From Pseudanabaena biceps PCC 7429 (GTDB lineage Bacteria; Cyanobacteriota; Cyanobacteriia; Pseudanabaenales; Pseudanabaenaceae): 33,470 nt of DNA. Below are positions 26,990-29,791 of this stretch, in pieces. A program made the position numbers and the translations under genes. The stretch is taken from the NCBI RefSeq assembly GCF_000332215.1, contig NZ_ALWB01000034.1:1-33470 (forward strand), given 5' to 3'. The notes under the pieces are model-generated. The model was not told the DNA's origin. It searched no databases and saw only the letters and a program-made list of their open reading frames with translations. Every line of letters starts with the position of its first letter. Position 1 is the stretch's first letter.

Positions 26990-27472
26990 TTATTTATCGT
27001 AGGGAATATCGGATGGCTTTTTCCCAACTGTGGCGGTAAAACTTGGAAAGTTTATGAGGTCGTCTGTAAATTTTTCGTCTAAGGTCAGGGCATATTTGCG
27101 ATCGGACAATAAAACTACGGGAATATGTTCTCGATCTTCTTTATTAGAAACCAATCGTTTTTTTACTTTATTTGTAAAATGCTCTCTCTGAAACTCTTTT
27201 ATTTGTTCATTGCTAATTTTAATTAATCTACCTTGCTTAGTTAAAGTATCAATGATTCGGAGAATATTATTTCCTAAAGTTGCATTTCCCATAGTTCTCA
27301 AATATTCATTCAATAGCTTATTGGAAACTACCAAATGAGCATTTTTATACATATTCTTAGGGTTAGCATCAAATTCTATTAGCCATTTAATAAGTTGCTT
27401 ATACTCAGGATCGAGAGGATTAGAGAAGTTTTTAGCTATATTATTGTCGATAAAGATATCTTTTCTAGTCAT
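26990..27472 (-). CDS. PIN-like nuclease-type protein
   Basis: A 160-residue protein with a PIN-domain pattern. Asp9 is in the first strand (IFIDNN), Glu56 in a helix (LLNEYLR), Asp113 in NKEDREHI and Asp132 in LTLDEKF. These four acidic positions are where PIN nucleases bind metal. PIN proteins usually cleave RNA; here both activity and target are inferred. It lies 25 bases downstream of an OLD/AAA15-like ATPase gene on the same strand, and the two appear to be one operon. Both are visibly AT-rich and lack the HIP1 octamer found in most neighbours, which suggests horizontal transfer. No ribosome site is obvious. Confidence 0.75.
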   Translation of the reverse strand: MTRKDIFIDNNIAKNFSNPLDPEYKQLIKWLIEFDANPKNMYKNAHLVVSNKLLNEYLRTMGNATLGNNILRIIDTLTKQGRLIKISNEQIKEFQREHFTNKVKKRLVSNKEDREHIPVVLLSDRKYALTLDEKFTDDLINFPSFTATVGKKPSDIPYDK

Positions 27473-27497
27473 TAGAAATTTTTAAAAGTTAAACATA

Positions 27498-28718
27498 TCA
27501 AGCATTAAGAGCAATATCCATCGTATCAATCATATATGTCTCAAAAAATCCTTTTGGAGCATTTAAGATTTGTCCATCTTTGGTAAATTCAATCTTATGA
27601 GCAATACTGCCATCTTTAATCGAGTTTTCAAAATAATAAACGGCTAAATCTTCAGGTGAGATTTCTCCTTTGACAATTAGCAATCTCATTCTATTGAGCA
27701 AATACTCACTATGAGTTTCAACAATATAGTTTTTATTTCTCTCATTAACTTGCTTAACTAAATAGTCGCCTAAATTAGCTTGCACAGAAGGATGTAAATG
27801 GATTTCTGGCTGAGACATTATCAATGTTGAATCATCTGACAGTTGCAAATCAGCAACAATAATCGGCAAAAACTGACTGATCCCAAATCCAACATCAGCT
27901 AATGATTCCCACTTGCTTCTACTTTTTACTTTGACTTTTATCTCAAATCTTCCCCCTGACAATCTATGAGGTTTAATATCATATAAAATCTTCAAATCTT
28001 TAAGAATAGAGGCTAAATTCAATGATTCTTCTGACTGATTATCATTCCATTCTAAAATTTGATCAATATAACCTCCACCAAATTTATCAACTGTACGATT
28101 TAGTAATGATTGATAATAAGTCCGTTCAGGTTGAGACCTAAAAGAACTAATAAAATTAAAATTATTAATTAATTCATTATATAGATCGTCGGAAATCTCA
28201 ATAAAATAGCCATAGAAATCCCTATCAGAATTATAAATTGCTTTAGTATGAAAATCATGAATATCTAAAGGCTCTAATTCAACATCATTATGTTTAATAT
28301 TTACAATATAAGATAAATCTTCTTTCTGCTTTACCTCAGTTTTTGTAAATGGATCTCCATTCTTTAAATTCCTTAATCTAGGTGAATTGCGTATTATGTC
28401 AAAACACCATGAAGTGTTGAATTCATATACTCTTCCTCCAAAAGCAAAATTCAGATCAATCCCCAAATCATTTTTTAAGCTATGATTAAATGAAACCTCC
28501 TCAAATCCTCCCATATTCACATAGTTCCCATTAAGTGATAAATAGAATGGAAATGAGTTGCCATTTAAACTAACACTTTGAAGCGGAGCTAATATTCCAT
28601 ATATTAGAGAACTTTTGCCGCTACTATTTTCACCTGTAAGCAAAGTTATTCTTGAGAAAGAAACATCTACTTCTTTGAAGCACTTAAAATTTTTTAGAGC
28701 TAATCTATGAATCTGCAT
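27498..28718 (-). CDS. ABC/OLD-like ATPase (AAA15, DUF3696-like)
   Basis: A 406-residue P-loop ATPase related to the SMC/RecF/OLD group. Walker A is GENSSGKSS (29-37), right after the FKCF motif typical of this group. A signature-like VGFGISQ lies at 276-282. Walker B (TLIMSQPEIHLHP, about 298-310) is followed by a D-loop/H-loop region with His336 in VETHSEYL. The C-terminal segment resembles DUF3696. No TOPRIM nuclease domain is present, so it is not a full OLD nuclease. The partner gene next to it encodes a PIN-like protein, suggesting an ATPase sensor with nuclease effector, as in several known phage-defence systems. Defence function is inference. AT-rich and HIP1-free. Confidence 0.82.
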   Translation of the reverse strand: MQIHRLALKNFKCFKEVDVSFSRITLLTGENSSGKSSLIYGILAPLQSVSLNGNSFPFYLSLNGNYVNMGGFEEVSFNHSLKNDLGIDLNFAFGGRVYEFNTSWCFDIIRNSPRLRNLKNGDPFTKTEVKQKEDLSYIVNIKHNDVELEPLDIHDFHTKAIYNSDRDFYGYFIEISDDLYNELINNFNFISSFRSQPERTYYQSLLNRTVDKFGGGYIDQILEWNDNQSEESLNLASILKDLKILYDIKPHRLSGGRFEIKVKVKSRSKWESLADVGFGISQFLPIIVADLQLSDDSTLIMSQPEIHLHPSVQANLGDYLVKQVNERNKNYIVETHSEYLLNRMRLLIVKGEISPEDLAVYYFENSIKDGSIAHKIEFTKDGQILNAPKGFFETYMIDTMDIALNA

Positions 28719-28945: not shown

Positions 28946-29791
28946 TTAAAAATCGCCGTAGTCAACTTGCAAACAAGTTAAGCCTAGATCGCGCCAAACT
29001 CTGACTACCTGATCGCGATCGTCTAGGACAAAAGCAACATTGTACTTATCAAGAATAAACTCATCATAAATTTCCTTCTTGACAATACTATCTTTACGCA
29101 TATCACCCGACTTTCGCATATGCAGACCATCAAAAGAAATATTGTGCTTTTCTAGCCATGCGAGAGTTTGTGGTTTGTATTTATCCTCTCTGCCAGATAC
29201 AAACACGATCGCCTTACCAGAAGTCTCTAAAATCGATCGCACAGGCTCATTTACCAAGTCCTGCTCGCACCTAGCCGCATCAAAAGGATTGCGATCGCCC
29301 ATTAAAGCGATCGTGCCATCGAGATCGCAGAGAATTACATCGGGCAAATCTGGATTATGGGCGGGTTTAGCTGCTCTGGGTGGAGCGATAAATTGGTTAT
29401 ACATATCGCGAATCACCTTCTCACCCACCGAATTAAAGCGCTTCAAATCCCGCTCAATGCAAGTTTCTAGCGGCACATGGCGGAAGTCTACTATTTCTAA
29501 TACTGCCAAACCTTTAATTAACTCTCTAATTCTGGCTTCGTGCTTGGGCGATAGATGCGTATTATCGACAATGACATGCTTTCCATTCTCTAGAGCCGCT
29601 CTAATAATTTGATCTTGAATATCGAGAACAAACTTCTCATTTCCCTTCGAGTGATAGGAATTATCTAGCATGGCGCGAAGCTCGTCTTTATTGACGCGCT
29701 TAATGCTATTTGGCGCTTTATCGACTTTATTTTTTGCCCATGTAGACTTTCCAGAAGCAGGCAAACCGATGGTGAAATAAACTGTCAGCAT
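28946..29791 (-). CDS. T4 Pnkp-like polynucleotide 5'-kinase/3'-phosphatase
   Basis: A 281-residue protein colinear with phage T4 polynucleotide kinase-phosphatase. N-terminal kinase: P-loop GLPASGKST with Lys15 and Ser16, Asp36 and Arg39 in NKDELRA, and Arg128 at the position of T4 Arg126. C-terminal HAD phosphatase: CDLDGT with Asp156 and Asp158, Arg167 in DRNPFD, Arg201 in VSGRE, Asp234 in GDMRKD, and Asp257/Asp258 in LDDRDQVV. It ends VDYGDF like T4 VASGDF. All catalytic positions I know for T4 Pnkp are kept. It should heal broken RNA or DNA ends for ligation. No RNA ligase is in the window. It contains a HIP1 site, so it is probably an older resident than the AT-rich pair beside it. Confidence 0.9.
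   Translation of the reverse strand: MLTVYFTIGLPASGKSTWAKNKVDKAPNSIKRVNKDELRAMLDNSYHSKGNEKFVLDIQDQIIRAALENGKHVIVDNTHLSPKHEARIRELIKGLAVLEIVDFRHVPLETCIERDLKRFNSVGEKVIRDMYNQFIAPPRAAKPAHNPDLPDVILCDLDGTIALMGDRNPFDAARCEQDLVNEPVRSILETSGKAIVFVSGREDKYKPQTLAWLEKHNISFDGLHMRKSGDMRKDSIVKKEIYDEFILDKYNVAFVLDDRDQVVRVWRDLGLTCLQVDYGDF

Follow-up and report, generated by a model that had tools for sequence, protein, structure and literature searches.

In a stretch of 33,470 nucleotides of the cyanobacterium Pseudanabaena biceps PCC 7429 (contig NZ_ALWB01000034.1), here called the window, one gene has the sequence of a genuine host-encoded T4-type polynucleotide kinase/phosphatase (Pnkp) and is thus a member of a known enzyme family. 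We give a probability of about 0.62 to the interpretation that this host-borne Pnkp is the healing half of a cyanobacterial Rnl1-Pnkp RNA repair module and that it has apparently been orphaned in this genome. The family membership, the intact active sites and the linked Rnl1-type ligase in relatives are observed. The enzyme family is already known; new are the setting in the host core genome, the recurrent loss of the ligase and the decay of the kinase site. We found no report of a cyanobacterial Rnl1-Pnkp pair in the open-access literature, subscription papers being outside the search.

The pnkp open reading frame (ORF) is complete on the minus strand, while the plus strand of 28946-29791 holds 12 stops. 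Besides the Pfam matches of its two domains (Table 1), PHROG 505 'polynucleotide kinase' matches the entire protein (1.5e-89). Pnkp1 of Capnocytophaga gingivalis is the closest PDB sequence (9e-44) and T4 Pnkp is also matched (5e-34), both end-to-end; matches of this strength are far beyond chance. In the HMMER alignment with T4 Pnkp there are 97 identities in 276 aligned residues (~35% identity). An AlphaFold model was built from an alignment of relatives (predicted local distance difference test, pLDDT, 89), and its top Foldseek match is T4 Pnkp (PDB: 1LTQ) with an E-value of 1e-23 and a template modelling (TM) score of 0.69. Single-domain comparisons to 1LTQ gave TMt values of 0.80-0.85, and the domains follow each other in the same order. 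A sequence-only reading of the window had proposed a chromosomal cyanobacterial enzyme of the T4 Pnkp type, with the domain order and the C-terminal GDF of T4 Pnkp; the family models, PDB matches and fold agree with this proposal and both features are present. An unrelated AAA kinase was rejected because both domains, the full-length family models and the fold match Pnkp, and the phylogenetic tree places the protein among Pnkps. The sole further Pnkp match in the window's genome is a 172-aa stand-alone P-loop kinase (L002:1501-1929, G000:C22) with 32% identity to the Pnkp kinase domain, which occurs in most Pseudanabaena.

Residues were mapped through the HMMER alignment to T4 Pnkp and are written T4=window. 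The N-terminal P-loop motif GxPxSGKS/T is present and the kinase residues K15=K15, S16=S16, D35=D36, R38=R39, R122=R114 and R126=R118 are kept. The phosphatase domain has the DxD motif of the haloacid dehalogenase (HAD) superfamily and keeps D165=D156, D167=D158, R176=R167, R213=R201, D254=D234, K258=K238, D277=D257 and D278=D258, so that every catalytic residue named in the sequence-only reading is found. The position of T4 D85 is N77 in the window protein, with an invariant D76 adjoining it. T4 D35 and R38 (window D36 and R39) are essential for the T4 kinase. Judged by these residues, the active sites are intact in both domains, and 5'-OH kinase and 3'-phosphatase activities are predicted.

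There is no RNA ligase in the window, as had been observed before, but the ligation partner, then considered open, is no longer open for the lineage, since a ligase of the T4 Rnl1 type adjoins pnkp in relatives. Among 386 cyanobacterial genomes, pnkp is sporadic (15 genomes in 7 of 142 genera). In all 11 pnkp-bearing cyanobacteria of this sample outside Pseudanabaena, a same-strand ligase ORF of ~350-470 amino acids adjoins pnkp, upstream in ten genomes and downstream in G152, and in G158 the two genes share a 4-bp overlap. These ORFs belong to the T4 RNA ligase 1 family (Pfam: PF09511), and the cyanobacterial ligase also matches T4 Rnl1 in direct sequence comparison (E-value 7e-20). The T4 ligase residues R54, K99, D101, G102, E159, E227, K240, K242 and Y246 do not differ among the 36 aligned sequences from cyanobacteria and viruses, and they include the lysine of the KxDG motif. 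PF09511 is found in 13 of the 15 pnkp genomes and in 3 of the 371 others, with a Fisher p of 1e-19 that treats related, non-independent genomes as independent. Within Pseudanabaena the ligase is found in 18 of 26 genomes; pnkp directly follows it in some and lies at another site in others, and the same divergent response-regulator gene stands beside the ligase at 15 of 15 loci examined.

Full-length pnkp is core to the genus Pseudanabaena, being present in 24 of the 26 genomes with checked translations, and the two genomes without it, G021 and G024, have assemblies of 82% and 76% completeness. The gene is chromosomal where the genome is a single contig, for example in G022 and G006. The ratio of nonsynonymous to synonymous substitution rates (dN/dS) of the window gene against G016, G019 and G022 is 0.017-0.08 in both domains, indicating purifying selection; only pairs without G003, G007, G014, G015 and G023 were used. 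In the tree, the Pnkps of Pseudanabaena group together in a single clade (support 100), surrounded by sequences from phages and other cyanobacteria. The deep order of phage and cyanobacterial Pnkps is poorly supported, with many values near 50, and therefore no donor is named. A plasmid origin was rejected since no plasmid record spans 80% of the window Pnkp query. A partial Pseudanabaena-like pnkp (87% identical) at L031:3-476, in a contig binned as Methylococcaceae, is probably a binning error.

The closest known counterpart is T4 Pnkp (PseT) with T4 Rnl1, a pair known above all for its role in phage counter-defence, which resembles the cyanobacterial genes in domain order, catalytic residues, fold and the Rnl1-type partner with conserved residues in the relatives. 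The window Pnkp differs from T4 in being host-chromosomal, core to its genus and ~35% identical in sequence, with the ligase missing from its assembly. Furthermore, the ligase adjoins pnkp in many cyanobacterial relatives, whereas in T4 the Rnl1 gene is not known to be adjacent to pnkp. The Pnkp1-Rnl-Hen1 complex of C. gingivalis (PMC4411300; PDB: 4XRP) likewise includes a bacterial homologue of T4 Pnkp that is encoded together with a separate ligase, the ligase gene coming first. Unlike in that complex, Hen1 (TIGR04074 over cut-off) was found in 4 of 18 pnkp-bearing cyanobacteria tested; these true Hen1 genes are L210, L211, L212 and L213 in G011, G003, G376 and G064. Nothing exceeds the TIGR04074 cut-off in the window's genome (G000), although the model may miss the distant Hen1 type of the C. 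gingivalis complex. The bacterial Pnkp (kinase-metallophosphoesterase-ligase, TIGR04075) shares end healing by a P-loop kinase, but has another phosphatase fold and a fused ligase, and the window Pnkp matches this model by its kinase part only, with 35 bits against a cut-off of 750 bits. The bacterial Pnkp/Hen1 system was rejected, as the similarity is limited to the kinase and no Hen1 is over the cut-off.

Two further genomes are worth mentioning beside these systems. G011 has, in addition to its Hen1, an ORF of 868 aa whose similarity to bacterial Pnkp lies in the kinase part, and some genomes may therefore hold two RNA repair systems. In another cyanobacterium, G390 (L097:1294-3459), a P-loop kinase, a metallophosphoesterase and a T4-Rnl1-type (PF09511) ligase are fused in a 721-aa protein. 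Judged by its domains, this protein would unite RNA repair in a single chain, and its ligase is of an unusual type.

In the proposed module, an RNase (a toxin or a defence nuclease) would cut host RNA, most likely tRNA. Pnkp would then remove the 2',3'-cyclic or 3'-phosphate and phosphorylate the 5'-OH at the break, and the Rnl1-type ligase would seal the healed RNA. The natural substrate of the window Pnkp would most likely be such nuclease-cut RNA, and we infer that it may have a T4-like role in tRNA repair or anti-defence. This genome seems to have lost the ligase recently; the Pnkp that remains is intact but would be orphaned, and it may act alone, work with another ligase or be heading to decay.

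The loss of the ligase is suggested by several searches of the window's assembly (464 contigs, 99.92% completeness). A close Rnl1-type ligase query had no match there and was positive in 18 sister genomes, the PF09511 profile had no match and detected two control genomes in the same run, and the profile of the Rnl2-type ligases (PF09414) had no match either. Thus the absence of a ligase extends from the window to the whole assembly, where neither an Rnl1- nor an Rnl2-type ligase could be detected, and the ligase is likely truly lost. The almost zero length of the window Pnkp branch in the protein tree, together with the purifying selection, is consistent with a recent loss.

Several points weigh against an orphaned RNA repair enzyme. 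The ligase may sit in an assembly gap, since contigs of sister genomes break near repeats (in G007 the ligase and pnkp are both near contig ends, beside repeats) and the response-regulator locus (homologue of L086:1462-2118) was not located in G000 by a DNA search whose matches were filled by a ~105-bp repeat. The window's genome also encodes RtcB, which needs the opposite end chemistry: RtcB joins 3'-phosphate to 5'-OH ends, i.e. the ends that Pnkp removes. Moreover, six near-complete Pseudanabaena genomes that lack the ligase still keep pnkp, and this favours a further role of the enzyme that does not depend on the ligase. The activity and the substrate of Pnkp are predictions, and no cognate nuclease was identified for the Pnkp-Rnl1 pair, known anticodon nucleases not having been searched across the genus. 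As a separate observation, the ~105-bp repeat is dispersed in dozens of copies in G000 (e.g. C42:18585-18693), and copies occur in gene neighbourhoods where sister assemblies break.

The ligase partner of Pseudanabaena Pnkp has been lost recurrently. In G017 (L060:6976-8596) ~125 bp separate the regulator from pnkp and the interval holds no ligase, where other Pseudanabaena have the order regulator-ligase-pnkp. The ligase has here been deleted naturally, and the neighbouring pnkp has altered kinase residues. In G001 the ligase is reduced to a ~30-residue remnant. At 21 active-site positions, the Pnkps of 18 out of 18 ligase-bearing species are identical to the window Pnkp, and among the ligase-less genomes G001 and G013 are, like G000 itself, unchanged. 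The Pnkps of the ligase-less G008 (S16T, R39G, N77H), G012 (D36N, R39G, N77H) and G017 (D36G, R39S, T78L) have changes confined to kinase positions, with every phosphatase position kept; to judge by these substitutions, the kinase active site has decayed and the phosphatase is intact. The tree supports bearing on one or two such losses are only 45-53. The ratio of kinase to phosphatase branch lengths is ~2.1x higher in the clade of these three species and was >1 in 29 of 30 site bootstraps, but we use it as supporting evidence only because the clade as drawn also includes G001 and the ligase-bearing G002.

An unlikely alternative, but the one that survives best, is that Pnkp heals 3'-phosphate/5'-OH nicks in DNA for the housekeeping NAD+-dependent DNA ligase and that its linkage to Rnl1 is a phage inheritance. 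Mammalian PNKP heals DNA ends together with DNA ligases, and T4 Pnkp acts on DNA as well as RNA; T4 structures with single-stranded DNA are among the Foldseek matches of our model, and pnkp persists where the Rnl1-type ligase is gone. However, the gene is tightly linked in the genomes to an RNA ligase and not to a DNA ligase, DNA ligases not having been searched, and the kinase residues decay in three species lacking the RNA ligase though every species is expected to have a DNA ligase.

Somewhat less probable again is a ligase-independent 3'-phosphatase, which would clear 3'- or 2',3'-cyclic phosphates after the loss of the ligase, for example in the clearance of RNA fragments by 3'-exonucleases or in nucleotide recycling, and for which the kinase would be dispensable. 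The retained phosphatase and lost kinase residues of G008, G012 and G017 and the branch-length ratio of their clade point in this direction. The kinase is intact in the window copy and in the ligase-less G001 and G013, and it would therefore be premature to ascribe this role to the window gene.

Pnkp is common in phages. There are >2,500 phage records with a homologue, the best of which is 45% identical. A single-sequence scan of IMG/VR found no close viral copy of the window Pnkp, and a profile search of the same database found 298 relatives with at best 55-57% identity; close viral copies were therefore rejected. A Rnl1-type ligase is within reach in 37 of the 81 viral pnkp loci examined, commonly upstream with a 4-bp overlap. 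In the Arthrobacter phage Seahorse (genes 81-82) the ligase is directly upstream of pnkp with the same overlap as in G158; in contrast to the window pnkp, such rnl-pnkp cassettes of actinophages and uncultured phages are phage-borne, and the Seahorse protein is 38% identical to that of the window. An old exchange of pnkp with phages is likely. These cassettes and the intermixing of phage and cyanobacterial sequences in the deep tree would also suit a recent phage stray without a host role, but we consider such a prophage remnant very improbable given the full-length, monophyletic and selected gene throughout the genus, its place on the main chromosome of those genomes that are finished, the housekeeping genes flanking it, such as carA and the phosphomannomutase-type gene, and the distance of the nearest viral matches.

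In the window, pnkp lies between the phosphomannomutase-type gene and an AAA/DUF3696 ATPase with a 160-aa protein, near carA. The 160-aa protein is beside the ATPase at every examined site; its predicted structure was discarded (pLDDT 40). The pair is found in 7 of 26 Pseudanabaena, mostly beside a 172-aa gene and carA, and at the CarA locus the ATPase occurs without a full pnkp in G007, G015, G019 and G023. The region 26990-28718 is a candidate two-gene defence unit. Since the pair occurs without pnkp, a functional link is not claimed. That pnkp joins this pair in a local unit for defence or as its antidote, repairing the damage that the pair does, is highly doubtful: the pair lies next to the gene in the window, to remnants of it in G007 and G023 and to a copy in opposite orientation in G002, but it has no adjacent pnkp in G015 and G019, it is far rarer than the core gene pnkp, and the 160-aa protein is only a putative nuclease.

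At the carA-side locus, G007 (L080:2051-2152) and G023 (L082:6309-6641) have C-terminal pnkp pieces only and a full pnkp elsewhere, which suggests an ancestral duplication of pnkp at this locus. The window keeps the full gene there, suggesting that its genome kept the carA-side copy, and the regulator-ligase-pnkp locus may perhaps have been lost from it in one event. A 46-residue C-terminal pnkp piece (61% identical) was also found at a contig end in G010.

Table 1. Coordinates of pnkp, its domains and the neighbouring genes in the window.
Feature	Position	Strand	Description
pnkp, T4-type 5'-polynucleotide kinase and HAD 3'-phosphatase	28946..29791	minus	281 aa, ATG start
Kinase (P-loop) domain of pnkp, residues 1-~145	29322..29791	minus	Pfam AAA_33, residues 5-134, 2.3e-19
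3'-phosphatase domain of pnkp, residues ~146-281	28949..29344	minus	Pfam HAD_PNKP, residues 150-281, 6e-50, GDF end
AAA_15/DUF3696 ATPase, neighbour, link to pnkp system not claimed	27498..28718	minus	Similar to defence ATPases (PADLOC models NsnB, HEC-03B and AriA)
160-aa protein, neighbour, link to pnkp system not claimed	26990..27472	minus	No confident family

A tentative extension of the RNA repair interpretation, which we regard as possible but doubtful, is that repeated loss of Rnl1 uncouples the genus-wide Pnkp from sealing, leaving both activities in the window and then only the phosphatase in G008, G012 and G017. If true, this uncoupling would show a cellular role of the 3'-phosphatase on its own. 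The natural genomes with both genes, with pnkp only or with a dead-looking kinase site are a ready comparative series, in which one can ask what T4-type RNA repair is used for in bacteria and whether the phosphatase has a separate role.
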